DNA from: Branchiostoma floridae
Taxonomy: Eukaryota; Chordata; Leptocardii; Amphioxiformes; Branchiostomatidae
DNA: 64,000 nucleotides
NCBI RefSeq assembly: GCF_000003815.2
Contig: NC_049982.1
Span: 21,179,699-21,243,698 of the forward strand
Direction: 5' to 3'
Positions within the stretch are counted from its first letter, which is position 1. Each line of letters begins with the position of its first letter. The notes under the pieces were generated by a model. That model ran no database searches. It was not told where the DNA came from and saw only the letters and a program-made list of their open reading frames with translations. Position numbers and translations under genes: made by a program. Below, piece after piece: positions 52,101 through 63,963 of the stretch.

Positions 52101-55100
52101 GTTATTGAACCTATGAAAAGGTAAGAAAAACTGTTATGCACATATCAAATTCACATACTAGTTATCTTTTATGTTGTGCTTTACTATCTTCATTGTAGAA
52201 GGTAATTAATCATATTGTTTCATTCTGTCTCCTGTTTCTTCATCCTATGGAGCCAAATACTTCTCAATAGGGCTTCATGCTTTGTGATGTAAATGCTTTA
52301 TACCTGTTGTACCTGTTGTAAGATCTGTACCAGAAAGCATTGTTGGTGTTAAAAATTTGTACCAGGATGATACTGAAAAAAATTATCATATAACAGTTAT
52401 CATTACAGTATCAAAGAACAACAAAGATAAATATTCACTACTGGCTAAGGCAAAGAGTCTGGAAACATTTTCCCAAGTATTAGTTTAATCAGTAAATAGT
52501 CAGAGGCGGCGGCACCAAATTTCGTCTGGGGGGGCGAACTTTTACTGACAGAATTGTACGGCGCATGTAGCGCCGAAGGCGCTACCAGTCGCGCCGGAGG
52601 CGCGACCATCCTAGGGGGGTCCGGGGGCATGCTCCCCCGGGAAAATTTGAAATCTTGACCCTCTAAAACGCCATTTCCTACGTTTTGGCGTGCATATTTT
52701 GCTGCCAGACTAAGCTAAATTTGATGACAATTCTGTTAGAAAGACACATGGTTTTAGCGAGGGCGATGCCCCCAAAATATATTCACGATTCCGAGTGTCC
52801 AAGGTGCAAGCTGTCACAAGGTTGGTCTGGGAAAATTTCAAAATCTGTACCCTCTGAAACGCCATTTTCTGTATTTTGGGGGACAAATTTTGCTGAGGGA
52901 CTATGCTAAATCTAATGTCATTTTTGTGAATGAAAGAGATGTTTGAGGGCAATGACCCACGCCTCAACAAATTTTCCCCATGTTGTTGTGAGCGACGGAG
53001 GCACAAGTCATCGCTAGGGAGGTCCGGACAAAATTTTGAAATCTTGACCGCCTAAAACGTCATTTCCTGCATTTGAGGCCCACATTCTGCTTGTAAACCA
53101 AGTATAGTACGATAGTAAAATTTTTATTAGTTAAAAAGGTTTTTAAGAGCAACGCTCCCGCAACATATTGTCCTGCGCCGACATGGCCAAGACGCGAGCC
53201 GTCACAAGGGAACACTGGCGAAATTTTGAAATCGGGACTCTCTGAAACGTCATTTCTTGCGTTTTCAGGTGTAAATTTTCCCATTAGACTAGCTTGATTT
53301 AATGAAATTTCCATCATCAAAAAAATACACAAGGTTTCAGCTTGATTTTCTGGGGGGGCGACGCCCCCCCAACATATTTTTCGGGGGGGCAGCCGCCCCC
53401 CCTGCCCCCCCGGTGCCGCCGCCACTGATAGTGGTCTCAAATTTGTGGGACCTTATTATGGATTTGGTAAATGCTTCTTGCTTTCTGTAAGGTTTTTATT
53501 GGGGCCCCAACCTGTTGTCAGTCATTCAGCTGGGTAGCCATAAATAGTAATACAAACAGGTATGCCTCTTTTGGTAGGTCATTGACCCTACACAAGTCAT
53601 GTGATTAGCTAATTATAATATCCCAGCAGGCATAGTAACTTTGCATGGTGAACGTGTTCTATTACACTAAACTAGACGTCAAAGCAAAAATAAGTAAAAA
53701 AAAATTAAAGATAATGTAAAAATTGTTTTGATGATTGTCTTTAAGGCTAAAACAAACTAATCCTAATGCACTTTTTATGTGAATTAACCTAAAAGAAAGT
53801 TTCATCCCTGAATGACTGCTAGCACTATTTGCACTCATGGGACCCCGCCGGTTTTTGCTCCCCACAGTAGGTGCACTCTGGTTTCCCTTCAAAACATCCG
53901 CACAAATCTTTCGCCTTTTACTAAAGATTTCCGTGGAGGGGAACAATCAATGAGTCTATAGGCTAATTTTTCTTAGCCCCACTTTGGTGGGGTAACATTA
54001 AACCAAAGAATTACACACGTTACCACCATATTATATCTAACCCTCCACATGGATTCTGGTCAGACTAGGACTTCTGTCTCGTGCATGTGCACATGTGATA
54101 CTAGTATTTTAAAAAGATCTAGACATGAAATATTAGTTTTGTGGTGATGAAATAGTTATTCAACTAATGTCCATTTTTTTCCAGACATTATGTGAAAATT
54201 ATTTGATTTTGACTTCGATAAACTGGGTTGTTTATTTAGTATAGGGTTTGTGATACAATGTATTTGTCACCCACCACAAAGAATAGGTAGACGATTGTAT
54301 TTCCTATCAGAACATTCTATGTGAATCTCATATTTTCGTTTGTTTGTTCAAGGTTTACCAACATCTTCCCCCAGGCCAACAGTGCCATCAGGAAAAGGGA
54401 ACAGAGTCTTCAGGTAAGTGGATGTGGGGGGAAAGTTAATGGCCATTGGTGCCAGGTCAAACTCAGTTGACAGTGCAATAACGCCACCTAGTAAACAATA
54501 ATGGTATTGCAGGTAGGATGTAGGATAATTCTTGTTAACCAGGTTAAACAAGCAAGTTTAACCAAGGAGCTTTTATCAGATAAAAGCTCCTTGGTTTAAC
54601 CTGGTTGGGTAAAAGAATTTTCCTATATCCTATATTCTTCCAACCTAATGAAGCTATTTTCAGAGGTATTGTAGGTAGTTTTGCAAAGAGCTTTTATATA
54701 TACATAAAGTTTGCTGTGGGCATCTTGCTCTGTCCATCTCCATAGTACATTTTTGTCGCTATCCTGATACTATCCCTGTAGTGATGTACAGTATTTGTAC
54801 CATTCATGTGCTGTTCCTATCCCCAGGAGTACAGTCGACAGCAGCTGAAGGTAGAGAAGCTTCAGGAAAAGGAGAGGACGGGACCAAACATTGTCAAGCT
54901 GGAGCAGGTCGGCACCACCTTTTGTATAGTGGCATATTCAAAACTTGATAGCAAAAATGCAGTGTACATGTAGTTATTTCCATACCATTAGAACATTTCC
55001 TTAACATGATTGTGATCAGTGGTTCAAAAGGAAGCTGCCAAAATAAAGGTTACGAGTCAAATAAAAAAAAAAAATTCAATGTCCTTTCCTTAATTGTCCA

Positions 55101-56753: not shown

Positions 56754-59700
56754 TCAGAGTTTGTCCCCCACAGTAAACTTCATGGCCACCACGCCCTCTA
56801 TCTCAGCTTCTAACTGGTCATTAGGCTGGACACCTGCCACGCCCATGGGTGTTCCTGTCAGGATCAGGTCACCTAAAACAAAATAAAACTGAGTATGTTC
56901 ATCTCTAGACTTACCTATTGCAACAGATTTCTGAAAAAATATTACCTGTTGTTGAAAGCAGTGTTATTTTCATCGTTCTGTAATGAACTCTCTACTTGAA
57001 GTACTTCATCTTCATGACACTGTAAATATGTATTTGGGCCATATTACATTGTACTACTGTAGTAAACATTTGTTTCCACAATGAAAACCTTTTTGCTGCT
57101 ACCATGAAATTGTGTCTCACAGCACCAATAGATGAATTTATGGTCAGTATTCTCAGTTAAGAAGTACATATATCTGCAAGGCATTTACATGTATAGGAGG
57201 AGGAGTAGACAACCTACAAGCACTGTGGAAACAAGCAAGTGTCACAGATATCCCACACAGCATCGCATTTGGAAATTCAATTTCTCCCACTGTTGATATC
57301 TATATATCTTTAGTCTATACCAGGCAATGAAATAACTTTACATTTTGCTGCTTCTGGAGTTCACAAACAAATGGTATCTGACCTGGTTCCAGGGTCATCA
57401 TCTTGCTGATATAGCTGATGATGTAAGGCACAGTGAAGATCATGTCGTTGGTGTTGGTTTTCTGTCGCACTTCGCCATTGACCTTCAGCCACATGTTCAG
57501 GTCTTGCGGGTCGCTGACCTTTTCTTTTGGCACAAACTCGCTGATTGGACATGCCGTGTCAAAGCCTTGAAATGGAGAAGAAAATGTGTGGTCTAAATAG
57601 GGTGAGCCTGCTGGAGAGAGCTGCTTGGAAGATTGGTGTGAAGACCCGCTGACTGCTGCCAACCCATGTCAGGGACCCCAGCACCACTATAATCAAATAC
57701 ATGGATACTACTACTAAAATTCCTTTCCTTTTTGATCTCATCAGATTTCTTCACAACAAAACAAACAGTAGTCACTGCAGGCACTAGAAGTACTAGTATT
57801 GAAGAATAGTAGAACTACATATTACTTACATTTGGCCCATGTCCATGGAATGCCCTTCTCCTTGGCTATGTTCTGGTAGTCCCTGGCCGTCATGTCCAGG
57901 GCGAGGACGTACCCCCCTACATGGTCCATTGCACTCTCCTGGGGAATGTTGGTACCACCTCCCGATATCACCACCCCCAGCTCTATCTCATGGTGGAGAT
58001 CTGTACACCCAGGAGGGCCCTGAGTACACATGGAATGGCAAGATTTTAACTTTTCACATCTCAGATGGTATTCTGACTACATACATGCATCAGTACTACA
58101 TTAATCAGCACTTTAAGGGTTAAGTTCAAAATAGAACAAGTCCCAAAAGTCTGCATAGTTATGGTGACCTATGACCAATTTTACTCTTGAGAGTTATACA
58201 TAAGCAAAGTGAAGCAACTTAAAAAAAAAGCAAGCTTACATTGATTGAATGTAACGGTACAAAGACATATCAATGTTGAGTGAAATTCTTTTGACCGTTA
58301 ATCGCGAGTTAAGTAACCAAGTAACAAAGTTCAAAGTGCGAACTATGCCCCCAAGTATTGAAAGCTGTATGTAGGCAATAAGTCAAGCCTACCCTCATGG
58401 GTTCAGTTCCTTCTAGCAAGAGACAAGACGGCGGCTTGAGGAACACAATGGCTGGTTCGTCTGGAATGGGCTTGCCTATCTCCTCACATTGACTTCTGAT
58501 GTATAACATTATAAAAATTTGGAATATGAAACTATAGAAGCCCTTCTCTGATTTCAAGTTTAATGCTGTGATTCTCAGTGATTTGTGATGTGGTTAGCTC
58601 TTCATGGTAAGCCCCTCAAAGAAATTACATCACAAGTACACAAAACCATACCCTGGTAGGCCCTTTCCCCTCTGGCAGGTAAGAAGTTGTTGGCTTCAAG
58701 AACAAGACAGGTTCTTTTGGTACCGGATTACCCAGCTCTGCACAGTGAGCTCTGCAATTATACAGATCAGCATATGCAGATTAGTGAAGCATTAAAGAAT
58801 TATTGGCAATACAATGACAAGTTATTAGTCCATATTGTTGTATAAGGCCACAACAAGTGAATCCTATGGATGAAGTAGAAGTGACATTAGCCAGAGCAAG
58901 TTAGCCATGAGTCATGAGCCCATGACTGTAGTTGCAGAAGTGAAACTAAATCATGTAGTATATAGTGGCACCACTGTGGAAGACATGAGTACTGAAATCA
59001 TGTGTAACTTATTGCTCATGGTCAATTGATCAGCATTTTTCTATAGTGACCACCTGTCTATAGGGGAGACACAACAATTAGTGCCAGCCTGTGCCTAGAA
59101 CCCCACGGTGAGAGAGCAGGGAAATAAAACAAGGCTTTAACCTTTGAAAAGCCTTTCTTGGTGGCATTTTTTGTTAAATTTGGGCATTTTGGGGATGTAT
59201 CTAAAAGACTAGCCGTACAGAAATTCTGGCAAATGAAGTTGATGAGACTGGACGTAGTATTAGTAGGCTATAATTTGAGGGTAAGTTTGTATGGCTTGAT
59301 CTTTTTATTCTTGAGATAATTGCATATTTGTTTCCTCAACTCTCCCATTAGATTGCATGTATTTTATACTGGGGGAAATTCTGATGGCTGTGTCTCCTCT
59401 GCTGTGGCCACATTTCTACAGTCCCTTGAGTGGCCGCTATAGACAGGTTTATCAGTAATATGAAAATCTAGCCATCTTGTTTCTTTAACCATCTTAAACA
59501 TGTTTGTTTTTTGCCCTATCTCATTATTAATATTTTGCAGTCTACTGAGGATGTCATCCATAAAATTTAATTGCTGTGGCCCAAATATACAAAGTGAATG
59601 AATAAAACAGTTGTAAAATCCTCATCATTGTAATACAGTAATTGTGCCTTTTTCTGTAGCTAAACAAAAGCAAGTCTACGAAAGCTTCACCTTCCGCACT

Positions 59701-61110
59701 GGAACCGAGTGCTGAAAACAATGGTCGAATCGACCTCAGCACTCGGCGCCCAGTGCTGAAGAATGTTCAGCACTCGTTTTCCAGTGCTGATCAGCCTTTC
59801 TCCAGTGCTGAAGCTCCCTCAGCACTCGTTTTCCAGTGCTGAAAAGACGTCAGCACTCGTTTTCCAGTGCTGAAAAGACGTTTTCCAGTGCTGAATGTTC
59901 GTCAGCACTCGGCTCCAGTGCTGAACTCGCGGCCCTGGCGGCGACGGGTCAGGTCAAAGGTCACTCAGCACTGGTTACCCAGTGCTGAAACCGCCGTCAG
60001 CACTGGGACCGAGTGCTGATATACAAAAGCTTCGCCTTCCGCACTCGATTTTCCAGTGCTCAGGGGCACTTCAGCACTGGAACACCAGTGCTGAGAAATC
60101 TTCAGCACAGGAAAACGAGTGCTGACGTCTTTTCAGCACTGGAACGTTCTTCAAACCAGTGCCGAAGTCTTTCGAGCACTGGAGTGTCCTAGTGCTGAGA
60201 GCGGTACTTGACGTATACTGATTAAAAATAAAGTTAAACTTTTGGTTGTGCTATTCAATTTAATGTGTAACTTGGTGTATGTATAGAGTATAGATACAAA
60301 GTACTGAAAGCGGTACTATATACGGTACTAATGAAGATGATTTTTCAAGTTTATGCAGTTTTAGCTGGTGTGTTACGCCGAACGGCGGTTTTGATATAAC
60401 GTAAGATAGATACAGATGCAAAAAAAGCCTGAATTTGTGTTGTTTTGTATAATTGAAATGTATAAGGAATGGATATCATTAAAACGGGATTGCAAACAAA
60501 TTTATTGTGTCAATTTGTGATAGATATCGCAGTAGCCATGTCGATTCTGGTGAATACTAATGGTGTCAGGTAAACTGACCCACTCAATATAAACGCATTG
60601 AAGTGCTGAAGCCGGCGTTTCCAGTGCTGAGAGCGTCAGCACTCGGTTTCCAGTGCTGACGAACATTCAGCACTCGGTTTCCAGTGCTGAAGCCGGCGTC
60701 TCCAGTGCTGAGAGCGCGTCAGCACTGGTTTTCCAGTGCTGTCGAACATTCAGCACTCGGTTTCCAGTGCTGAAGCCATCTTCAGCACTGGTTTCCAGTG
60801 CTGAAAAAGGAGGGTGAAGCTTTCGTAGTTTTGCTAAACAAAACTTATCATCGGTCAGTGCAACATTGAGTAAAGGAATTTTCATCTGATGAAAGCATCT
60901 GGTGAAAGATTGGGTACAAAGTCTAGTCAAGTTCAACTTTACAAAACTGACTGCTGCAAGACAGGACACCGGCAGCCGTGGAAAATGATGTCGTTTGTAT
61001 AACATGAATGCATTAGAGATGTGCACAACATTGTACCTGTAATTCCTTCCCACTGCGACAATCTTTCTACCCCATTCGTAGAATCTGGAAAGTTTTAAGG
61101 GTGCTGTCAT
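56754..61110 (-). CDS. FAHD1: FAHD1, acylpyruvate hydrolase / oxaloacetate decarboxylase
   Basis: Minus-strand exons: 61110-61037 (e1), 58751-58652 (e2a) or 58495-58393 (e2b), 58019-57830 (e3), 57565-57383 (e4), 56872-56754 (e5). With e2a the protein has 221 residues, with e2b 222; human FAHD1 has 224. FAHD1 is a mitochondrial fumarylacetoacetate-hydrolase-fold enzyme that cleaves acylpyruvates and decarboxylates oxaloacetate. Metal ligands are seen in LHHEIELGVV (both Glu) and LALDMTARD (Asp). The catalytic Lys is in WAKC, and FVPKEK, NDMIF.VPYIISYISK and LTGTPMGV are family blocks. The second-exon choice decides whether the dyad His (human His30) is present. The start in e1 gives LSRFYEWGRKIVAVGRNY, as in human. 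The gene is tail to tail with BIN3. Confidence 0.94.
58393..58495 (-). CDS. FAHD1: FAHD1 alternative exon 2b (dyad His replaced by Gln)
   Basis: The 103-bp exon has a good acceptor (ATCAG) and donor (AGG|GTAGG), and the same phases (2 in, 0 out) as exon 2a. It encodes SQCEEIGKPIPDEP..FLKPPS..LLEGTEPMR. This aligns along its whole length with exon 2a, but Gln replaces the His of the His-Glu dyad while the Glu is kept. It cannot be used together with 2a: read after 2a it gives a stop at its fourth codon (AAG TCA ATG TGA). Confidence 0.85.
58652..58751 (-). CDS. FAHD1: FAHD1 exon 2a (dyad His present)
   Basis: The 100-bp exon has acceptor TTGCAG and donor AGG|GTATGG. It encodes AHCAELGNPVPKEPVLFLKP..YLPEGKGPTR. 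The H-C-A-E spacing matches the catalytic His30/Glu33 dyad of human FAHD1, so this is the canonical isoform. Confidence 0.88.
58846..59581. mobile_element. Harbinger-like MITE in FAHD1 intron 1
   Basis: Ends GGCCACAACAAGTGAAT and the inverse ATTTAATTGCTGTGGCC. Homologous over its interior to 12914-13415, in opposite orientation. The flanks are TAA and CAA. Confidence 0.62.
59677..60822. mobile_element. element built of AGTGCTG/CAGCACT repeats, FAHD1 intron 1
   Basis: Inverted ends TACGAAAGCTTCACC and GGTGAAGCTTTCGTA bound 1.15 kb that contains about 35 exact copies of AGTGCTG or its complement. They are mostly set as facing pairs (TCAGCACTCG..TTTCCAGTGCTGA) in two blocks, 59690-60220 and 60600-60810, with AT-rich sequence between. 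A partial terminus copy, AAAGCTTCGCCTTCCGCACT, lies at 60026. GCTAAACAAAA occurs just outside both ends (59659-59669 and 60833-60843). No protein is encoded. Confidence 0.8.
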
Positions 61111-62168
61111 CGTAAAATCTGTGCAGGTTTCCCGACCTCTGGACTTACTTTACCTTTGACCTATGCCCCAGTTACGTTTAACCTCTAACCTCTCTTTTCA
61201 AAATTTTCCCACAATTATATTCAATACATGACAAGACTTGATTATGTATTTCAATCAAATAATTTAGTGATACATTATTAGAAGTTTTGGGCGAAAATGA
61301 AGAAACGATAATTACAAATTTTCAATTGACCAATCAAGTAAAAGTTTATGAAAGCCATGTGATCTGACGGACCAATGAGGACTCGGATACTATATTCTGC
61401 TCGAGCTTTCCTTTGTTGTCAAAATGGTGGACGTTCGTCAGTGAGGAGGTCGCTTGTTTCGGTGAAGAACGAGGTCTTTTCAGGTGATTTAGACATCCAT
61501 TTCTTCAAAACCAGACATGTAATATATTGCAAACGGATAACTGACATGTTCTGCTAAGCAGTTGTTTGTAATAGCCCACTTACGACTTATGGTAGCTTTG
61601 CAAGCAAAGACGAAACTCGAAGGAGGGGTGAAAAAATGGCGAAAGAAAAAAAAAAGCGCGAAGTCGCAAATCCGATACGAAAACTGCTGCCTGCTTGTAC
61701 ATTTATTTATGTGTTTGCTGCCGCGAGTCTTTTTTGTTACATAAAGACTAATCAAAGGTATTGGCGATCAACTGTTAACATGCTGCTACTGCACCATGCA
61801 GTACATGTAACGTTACATGTCGTAAGTTTGATTTTTGGATGCATGGCTGTATGTGCTAGTATACTGCTGCTGCTATAACTTTGTATAAGGATATAGCAGT
61901 AGGATATTATCCTACTGCTATATTCTTTCAAATATAGAAAGGACGGAAGCAAAAAAAGAGAAACCTTTTTTAATTCAGGAAAGCTAAAAGAAGTGTTTAT
62001 TAGTAATGAAATAAAGAATTTGATGTTGAGTGGTGCAGTAGAAAATAATAAGTCTATTCCTAAACGGCAAGGTTGCAGGTAACGAAAAGGTAAACTCGGT
62101 AAATTTTATGTATAAATTTTTTGAAACTTTGTGTTTTCTACTAGACCCTGTTGCTCTAGAGGACAACA
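61111..62168. promoter_or_regulatory. FAHD1/C2orf42 divergent promoter region
   Basis: The start codons of FAHD1 (minus) and C2orf42 (plus) are 1.06 kb apart and divergent. CAAAATGGTGG near 61419 is a YY1-like initiator, and a possible 5' exon ends at TTTTCAG|GTGATT near 61480, to join an acceptor at about 62159 (TTGCTCTAG). A 30-bp perfect hairpin (ATAGCAGTAGGATA and inverse) is at about 61892-61921. Confidence 0.4.
61636..61878 (+). CDS. possible small membrane protein, 80 residues
   Basis: The frame begins MAKEKKKREVANPIRK and then has two hydrophobic stretches (about residues 17-37 and 49-80, the second interrupted by histidines) joined by a basic loop, like a two-pass microprotein. I do not recognise a family. 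A donor-like AAAG|GTATTG at about 61756 means it could instead be the first exon of a type II membrane protein, but no following exon is seen before C2orf42. Confidence 0.28.
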   Translation: MAKEKKKREVANPIRKLLPACTFIYVFAAASLFCYIKTNQRYWRSTVNMLLLHHAVHVTLHVVSLIFGCMAVCASILLLL

Positions 62169-63963
62169 ATGGCAACCACCCAGGAACGAATCAAGAGCTT
62201 ATTTGCAGACCTGGGAAAGCCCACCCTACGTGGTGTCAAAAAATGCCCCAAGTGTGGGACACTCAACGGGACACGCGGCTTGAGCTGCAAGAACAAGGAA
62301 TGCAACACTGTGTTTCGAGATAAAGTCCGCAAAGCAGGACACAGTGCAGATGCAGTGCGTATCATCACGGGATCCACCGTCCAGGTGTTTTCGGTGCGTT
62401 TACGTGACCGAGGGCCGGACTATCGAGGATTTGTCCAACTACCCATAACCACTGATGCGGATGGCAATCCCACCCAGACTGTGGATGGGGCAGCGCTGAT
62501 CGCTGCCTCGGGTGCCGGGCGATGTTTCGTTGAGACTTGTCAGAGAGTTCGCCATGTAAACGTTGGTGAGGAAACGTGCTCTCACATCAAGTTGGCCCTG
62601 ACCTGTGAGGCCGAGGCAACGCCCCTCACCCTGAAAAACTCTGTTCTGAACTCCTTAAACATTTCCAATGAAATCAAACAGGCGATATGGCTTCTCGCAA
62701 CAGAAACAACGGGACCGCTCGTGCAGCGGGTGACAAAGAACATCATGGTCGTGAAATGTAAACCTGATCCGAGACAGCCTCTGGGTTTCCTGCACTTTTC
62801 ATTCAGCGACACAAGCCGAAATCGAGACGCGGCGGAGCACAAGTTCCACTGTACATGCCGTATGTTTAAGACAATGAAGATGGGCAATCAGGGTGTGTCA
62901 GAACAGGCCAGAAGATGTGTTCACTTCTATGCCTGTATCTGTGCATTTGCCAGCGACGACAAGCTGACGGAAGAGTTTGCCTACTACATTAATCTTGATA
63001 ACCCAGGTACAGATTTTTCCCTTTGCACATTTTCCAACGAAATGTTTTTGGCATCTTCATAACCATCATTTATTTCCAGTGAACAGAATAGCGCAAGATG
63101 GTACTGTTCTGAGTAGAAAGCCACATTTGAAAATTCATCCATTAAATTCCCAGTCAATTGGCTATTTGGAGCAATATTTGAGCTGTGCAGACAAGTACAA
63201 TGTACTTTATATGTTGTTAGCTAATCGTGGATCTGAACAAACTCAAGTCAAGAATTGGTATGAAATAATTGATAAAGAGGAAATGTAAGTTTTTACATTT
63301 TAGTACATGCAGCATTCGGCTATCTGTTGCAGGTGCAGCCCCAGAGAAGGCACTGGCGGCAGTGATTGAACTGGCAGACGGGTCACCCAAGATATCAAAA
63401 AAGAGAAAGAAAGATGACACACTAGGTAAAATGTTATTTTTTATTCCTCAAGATTTACAGGCCTACCATCTGTTTTACCAGTGCACCACTAACAGATGTC
63501 ATGGCAGCCTGGAGTGATCATGACATGTAATAGAAAAACAGCAGTATGCTGGAAGCTGTCTTCTGGCAAGTTGAACTATTTGTCTCATGGTACCTTTTTT
63601 AGTGACAGAAACTTGTTAACAAATATAATAATAAACTAATCTGAACTCAATACGCTGACCATAGATCTATACCCATCTTCTATCTGTCATCTGCAGAAGA
63701 AAATCTATAATTGTGAAAAGTGAAAAGAACTTCAAATTTATGCTTGATAAAAATCATGCATGTTGAAAAATCTGAGATGTGTCATGAATAAAATGTACAC
63801 TAGAGCCTCATATTTTCCTTGAAGTGTACTTACAGTTTTACAATTGTTTTAATAGCCCAGGCCAGCAGTGCATTGCTGACGTTACAAGACAGTGGAAACA
63901 TTCCCTCCAAGAAAACCCCCATCAAGAAAACAGCGGCAAGCCCTCCATCTGCAAAGAGACCTG
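62169..63963 (+). CDS. C2orf42: C2orf42 orthologue, 5' part (continues beyond the window)
   Basis: Exons 62169-63006, 63333-63425 and 63856-63963, all phase 1, and the gene runs off the end. The first 279 residues align with human C2orf42: LFADLGKPTLRGVKKCPKCG, NGTRGLSCKN, IITGS..VQVFSVR.RDRGPDYR, EATPLTLK and CICAFASD. A treble-clef-like zinc site is formed by Cys26, Cys29, Cys40 and Cys45. A SWIM-like CxC..CxH set is formed by Cys228, Cys230, Cys250 and His252, with a second Cys/CxH set at residues 119-139. Exons 2 and 3 encode Lys/Ser-rich linker (KISKKRKK, SKKTPIKK), possibly nuclear localisation signals. Molecular function is unknown in any species as far as I know. The exon 3 acceptor could also be 5 bp further on. 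Confidence 0.92.

Follow-up and report, generated by a model that had tools for sequence, protein, structure and literature searches.

The FAHD1 gene of the lancelet Branchiostoma floridae probably yields two proteins from a two-member cluster of alternative second exons, i.e. a normal FAHD1 when exon 2a is used and, when exon 2b is used, a second isoform in which the catalytic dyad of the lid is altered. The gene lies in the window analysed here, which comprises the 64 kb of DNA at positions 21179699-21243698 of contig 4 in a genome of 513,431,437 bases and 431 contigs; all positions given below are window positions. The five-exon coding frame is complete and runs on the minus strand from 61110 to 56755, with AG and GT borders present at the exons wherever they are required. 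The parts of the gene are as follows (lengths in nucleotides, nt).

61037-61110, minus strand: exon 1 (coding part from the ATG), the last two bases of which belong to an Arg codon; donor CAG/GTACAA; the protein matches human FAHD1
58652-58751, minus strand: exon 2a, 100 nt, encoding AHCAELGNPVPKEPVLFLKPTTSYLPEGKGPTR; both lid residues, His and Glu, are canonical
58496-58651, minus strand: intron between 2a and 2b, 156 nt, G+C content (GC) 0.34, with a branch-point-like A 32 nt upstream of 2b and about 124 nt from the 2a donor
58393-58495, minus strand: exon 2b, 103 nt, encoding SQCEEIGKPIPDEPAIVFLKPPSCLLLEGTEPMR, in which a CAA codon puts Gln where 2a has His; Glu stays and there is one additional residue
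57830-58019, minus strand: exon 3, holding the metal ligands (human E71, E73 and D102) together with R106, Q109 and K123
57383-57565, minus strand: exon 4, placed by its exon joins and its match to human FAHD1
56755-56872, minus strand: exon 5 including the stop codon, placed by its exon joins and its match to human FAHD1

Reading frame and splice signals

Exons 2a and 2b are each preceded by AG and followed by GT, and they share the same entry phase (two bases being brought from exon 1) and the same exit phase, so that exons 1-2a-3-4-5 give an open protein of 221 residues and exons 1-2b-3-4-5 one of 222 residues. When 2a and 2b are spliced together a stop is reached three codons past 2a (..PTRKSM-stop), and when both are skipped a stop is reached at codon 37. 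The two exons therefore look like a mutually exclusive pair, i.e. they are adjacent, alike in sequence, length and phase, flanked by splice borders and stop-free, and either joint inclusion or skipping is non-productive. A sequence-only reading of this DNA had placed the two exons at these coordinates as tandem homologues of shared phase, and the exon joins and AG/GT borders confirm this, as the stop past 2a confirms its claim that the two together shift the frame and terminate at once. Its statement that only one of them can be used holds for the productive frame, which takes one exon at a time, but is too strong as it stands because the 156-nt intron leaves space for 2a-2b splicing.

The same reading had called the splice sites good, which is true of the AG and GT borders but generous otherwise: the donors of 2a, 2b and exon 1 each match six of the nine consensus bases (eight for exon 3 and seven for exon 4), and the acceptor tracts are middling, with pyrimidine fractions of 0.55 and 0.65 for the two exons in the 20 bases upstream of the acceptor AGs. 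Exclusion by short spacing or by a distant branch point was considered as the means of choice and is unsupported, since with a 156-nt intron and a branch-point-like A 32 nt before 2b no steric block to 2a-2b splicing is expected. As joint splicing is feasible and its product frameshifted, exclusivity would rest on the reading frame. PMC5740500 considers 28 human genes with validated mutually exclusive exons and with an orthologue in Drosophila that also switches exons, and finds this incompatible-frame type in 20 of them; the criterion applied there is junction reads that join each exon to its neighbours while skipping the other. A 12-nt pair (58193-58204 and 58496-58507, 92% complementary) joins the 2b acceptor to the next intron and could mask the acceptor; it is short, comes from one species and may be due to chance.

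Homology of exons 2a and 2b

Judged from the sequence, 2a and 2b are a real homologous pair of alternative exons. When the 2a peptide was searched against the window, 2b was found at an expectation value (E) of 3.8e-8 and the next-best match at E 0.59, on which grounds chance resemblance was rejected; no third copy of the exon and no paralogue was seen in the window in this search. The two exons are identical at 16 of 33 aligned residues and differ at 38 of 99 aligned bases (DNA identity 0.616), the differences falling at codon positions 1, 2 and 3 in the numbers 11, 8 and 19. Aligned with each other, the exons reach a score of 24.5, compared with at most 15.0 among 300 shuffles, whereas their 150-nt flanks do no better than shuffles, of which 178 and 273 of 300 attain the real score. 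The homology is therefore confined within the exon borders. The GC of 2b is 0.515, with 0.34 and 0.357 in the adjoining introns, and 41 of 1993 equal-length stretches taken from sampled intron parts attain the GC of 2b.

The 401-nt stretch that holds both exons was located at a single place in the genome, at 100% (one candidate scored). Searching the lancelet's own genome with the 2b-form protein gave six matches from eight scored candidates, and PF01557 gave two matches from five, all of them at the FAHD1 locus; this search runs exon by exon and may overlook FAHD2 or FAH, so FAHD1 may not be the sole family member. Nor was a processed retrocopy with exon 2b joined seen in the own-genome searches made with the 2b-form protein and the 401-nt stretch.

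Both isoforms belong to FAHD1 and the FAA hydrolase family. The Pfam profile PF01557 scores 218.1 bits on the 2a form and 210.1 bits on the 2b form (cut-off 23.9; profile positions 1-213 of 214), and human FAHD1 (6fog) matches them at 277.8 and 257.1 bits respectively, the 2a form being 58% identical to the human protein. Against HpcE (1gtt) the 2b form scores 202.7 bits and the 2a form 202.1, even though the 2b form is 20.7 bits lower on human FAHD1. The additional residue in 2b lies after the lid Glu and ahead of the Phe-Leu-Lys strand.

Selection on exon 2b

By a Nei-Gojobori count, the nonsynonymous divergence (dN) between 2a and 2b is 0.381 and the synonymous divergence (dS) 1.549, giving a dN/dS near 0.25. 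Our simulations started from a duplication, gave both copies the same time to diverge and were halted at the observed 38 differences, either with 2b neutral (2a omega 0.05, 0.1 or 0.2; six settings, 1500 runs) or with both exons constrained. The observed BLOSUM similarity was attained in 0 to 0.67% of the neutral-2b runs, and with both exons constrained in 59% and 39% of runs at omega 0.1, 22% and 11% at 0.2, and 12% and 5% at 0.25. A simpler and now superseded simulation, in which every change was put on a single branch (20000 runs), gave 0.005 and 0.015% for similarity and 1.4 and 2.9% for identity. Of the simulated neutral copies, 33 to 41% were stop-free.

A family profile built from the FAHD1 proteins of human and mouse together with 80 prokaryotic relatives gave 75.3 bits for 2a and 39.9 for 2b, neutral copies averaging between -6.9 and -2.1 bits; 39.9 bits was attained by 1, 0 and 3 of 4000 neutral runs in three settings. 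The similarity and profile tests thus disfavour 2b as a neutral relic since the duplication, but the plain counts of identical residues and of third-position changes are compatible with it. The models used are simple, and 2b had been picked for its exon-like look. Because the differences between 2a and 2b are conservative ones seldom produced by neutral change, and because dN is low relative to dS, the analysis suggests that 2b has been kept as protein, and most likely it has been kept as coding sequence. Relaxed constraint or recent silencing of 2b may nevertheless apply, either being compatible with these tests.

The lid histidine and other catalytic residues

The lid motif reads N-Y-R-A-H-C-A-E in 2a, N-Y-R-S-Q-C-E-E in 2b and N-Y-A-D-H-V-R-E in human FAHD1. 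The alignment with the human protein thus places H-C-A-E of 2a and Q-C-E-E of 2b at the His30/Glu33 position, just as the sequence-only reading had it, although only one half of the catalytic dyad is swapped: His30 is replaced by Gln, and Glu33 is unchanged. The catalytic pair motif N-Y-x-x-H-x-x-E is present in the 2a form and absent from the 2b form, where the pair consists of Gln plus Glu, and going by this motif the 2b form should not be classed as a canonical acylpyruvase. Apart from the lid, both isoforms share K47, E71, E73, D102, R106, Q109 and K123 (human numbering).

Relatives were collected with patterns that leave out the histidine; at least 597 stretches matched, 588 were confirmed and the best 80, all prokaryotic, were used. 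In a tblastn alignment His stands at the His30 position in 79 of these 80 and Glu at the Glu33 position in 79, while Gln is at the His30 position in none; the single exception (L042) is without the motif. A cruder pattern count had given His in 78 of 80, its second exception (L084) being a misplaced pattern match that really has His. Of the 2b residues at the 17 positions where the exons differ, ten are shared with two or more of up to 82 sequences, three with one and four (Gln27, Ile31, Leu51 and Glu55) with none. The loss of His in 2b stands out on this comparison, yet Gln27 is not the sole unusual residue.

Proposed mechanism

The two-member cluster would have arisen by tandem duplication of the second exon, with coding constraint then acting on 2b. 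Productive transcripts should carry exactly one of 2a and 2b, because joint inclusion or skipping leads to an early stop and presumably to decay, and the constraint on 2b suggests that it is truly spliced in. Inclusion of 2a would give the ordinary enzyme. Inclusion of 2b would leave the Mg ligands, Lys47, Lys123, Arg106 and Gln109 unchanged and provide a lid helix that carries Gln instead of His30. In human FAHD1 the lid closes upon substrate binding and forms a short helix, whereby Glu33 and His30 come close to a water molecule that is held there. For the hydrolysis of acylpyruvates the E33-H30 pair is proposed to deprotonate this lid water, and in the decarboxylation of oxaloacetate it may contribute to quenching the enolate (PMC7115867, PMC7116474 and PMC8398924). 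PMC4534308 lists H30, E33, D102 and R106 as relevant to oxaloacetate decarboxylation, and PMC11035622 reports that K123A abolishes both activities.

If the published mechanism applies, Gln would be unable to serve as the base of the pair that readies the lid water, and acylpyruvate hydrolysis should therefore be lost or strongly reduced in the 2b form. In a mutagenesis study of human FAHD1, the H30, E33 and K123 mutants reportedly each affected one or both activities. Steps that depend on Lys123 and the metal, e.g. oxaloacetate tautomerisation, may partly survive in the 2b form, and FAHD1 activity might then be adjusted to tissue or stage through the ratio of 2a to 2b. A possible but doubtful extension of this scheme is that the 2b form has been maintained as a FAHD1 chosen by splicing whose lid is unable to activate water. 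Such a form would either split the tautomerase from the hydrolase and decarboxylase activities, or serve as a weak subunit that pairs with the 2a form in mixed dimers, in which case FAHD1 output, the repair of oxaloacetate tautomers and the activity of succinate dehydrogenase would all be set through splicing.

Weighing of the alternatives

The alternative-exon interpretation put forward by the sequence-only reading is upheld in part, by the tandem homology, the one-at-a-time reading, signs of purifying selection at the protein level of 2b and the loss of His, while exclusivity brought about by splicing itself, a 2b form lacking hydrolase activity and a regulatory role stay conjectural. Several results weigh against a maintained second isoform. 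The splice sites are average, the 6/9 donor level being reached by 655 of the 4028 GT sites on the plus strand of the window. In the simulations, 2a at omega 0.1 with 2b relaxed to omega 0.5 attains the observed similarity in 7% and 4% of runs and is not rejected; neutrality is not rejected either by the 16 identical residues (attained in 7 to 20% of neutral-2b runs) or by the 19 third-position changes (6 to 10%). Exon 2b suits the family profile less well than 2a, the 2a form is the better match in 71 of the 80 relatives, and besides Gln27 three residues of 2b occur in none, and three in one, of the up to 82 sequences. Both 2b and its Gln are known from one species, and the Gln codon CAA, read from one assembly, would turn into a His codon by a single base change, so that an error or polymorphism would undo the key claim. 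Finally, PMC8398924 states that the residues essential to the reaction are still to be elucidated.

Another explanation would be the decay of 2b, as a duplicate exon once used and now relaxed or silent in B. floridae. In its favour, 2b is the more derived copy, with His lost and six more residues found in none or one of the sequences, the identity and third-position counts are compatible with neutrality, and the human exon 2 peptide matches 2a at E 7.5e-8 and 2b at E 0.45 only. We nevertheless consider decay unlikely, as 2b is stop-free, keeps the frame by its length and has intact splice borders, and as the similarity and profile tests disfavour neutral evolution since the duplication, recent silencing being outside the reach of these tests. 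An artefact, i.e. a Gln that stems from a sequencing or assembly error, or an exon pair that is an assembly duplication, could exploit the one-base distance of CAA from a His codon and the single assembly; the exons, however, differ at 38 of 99 aligned bases and have unrelated flanks, so that the pair is no assembly duplicate, and together with the single 100% location of the 401-nt stretch this makes an artefact very improbable.

Alternatively, 2b could be a used exon that gives a working enzyme with shifted substrate preference: the water would still be hydrogen-bonded, now by Gln, and the pocket would have a new shape owing to the extra residue ahead of the Phe-Leu-Lys strand. The other named catalytic residues are indeed kept, the 2b form equals the 2a form on HpcE while losing 20.7 bits on human FAHD1, and the Glu-to-Phe spacing of 13 found in 2b occurs in 8 of the 80 relatives by a simple pattern count (in which at least one relative is misplaced); but with Gln at the lid position in none of the 80, we think a shift of substrate improbable. 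A further alternative is a poison exon, i.e. a 2b that, when included together with 2a, brings in a stop and reduces the output of FAHD1, its own protein being unimportant. Joint inclusion does stop at once and the intron would allow it, but amino-acid conservation would then be needless, and the dN/dS near 0.25 and the profile test, which suggest that 2b was kept as protein, leave a poison exon with very little likelihood. Normal FAHD1 from 2a plus a dyad-altered isoform from 2b thus stays the explanation that we favour.

Relation to known systems

Exon switching that changes catalytic residues is already known elsewhere, and the FAHD1 pair is a further case. PMC7954323 reports nine mutually exclusive exon events that alter catalytic residues, among which Drosophila CG42249 resembles FAHD1 in having a homologous exon swap that changes such a residue, but is a likely nucleotidase of another family. 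The mutually exclusive exons 4a and 4b of OGDH, an enzyme of the tricarboxylic acid cycle (PMC7969005), also belong to a mitochondrial enzyme, are tandem duplicates with a combined length that is not a multiple of 3, and give isoforms that differ in a functional motif; in OGDH, however, a calcium-binding motif is switched, whereas in FAHD1 an active-site residue changes, and the choice in OGDH is enforced by distant branch points near the upstream donor, whereas the branch-point-like A in FAHD1 is 32 nt before 2b. PKM, PFKP, KHK and ACOX1 are likewise metabolic enzymes with switching of tandem duplicated exons (PMC9741552); set beside these pairs, FAHD1 2b has lost an active-site His. The lancelet 2a form, like human FAHD1 (6fog), has all the catalytic residues checked. 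For human FAHD1, the available part of PMC7116474 mentions three isoforms and does not describe a homologous exon switch, and nothing in print on such a switch in FAHD1 was found in the open-licence part of PubMed Central.

The chief role of FAHD1 is debated. One account (PMC10825186) gives a kcat/KM of 1.99e6 per M per s for the oxaloacetate tautomerase activity of the human enzyme and finds that it greatly exceeds the decarboxylase activity, while another argues for decarboxylation (PMC12176266). If a form of FAHD1 without the His has been kept under selection, it would be a natural probe of which activity the lid His serves, would suggest that FAHD1 activity is regulated by splicing, and would join the small number of exon pairs for which a changed catalytic residue has been reported.

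Neighbourhood of the gene

Intron 1 of FAHD1 contains an element of about 1.17 kb (59669-60835) with 27-nt terminal inverted repeats (89%), which looks like a non-autonomous DNA transposon. Within it, 11 places match the dyad TCAGCACTGG-n5-GAGTGCTGA with at most three mismatches, i.e. 22 strand-wise matches against 0.01 expected, partly at a spacing of 31 nt. About 1 kb upstream of FAHD1 there is a divergent neighbour on the plus strand (62160-63062), an open frame that contains a zinc finger of the zf-tcix type (PF14952, 72.8 bits) and that we take to resemble C2orf42. A full-length match to U5 spliceosomal RNA lies at 53873-53994 on the plus strand (Rfam RF00020, 94.4 bits, gathering 40; model positions 1-117 of 117), with the loop CGCCUUUUACUA.
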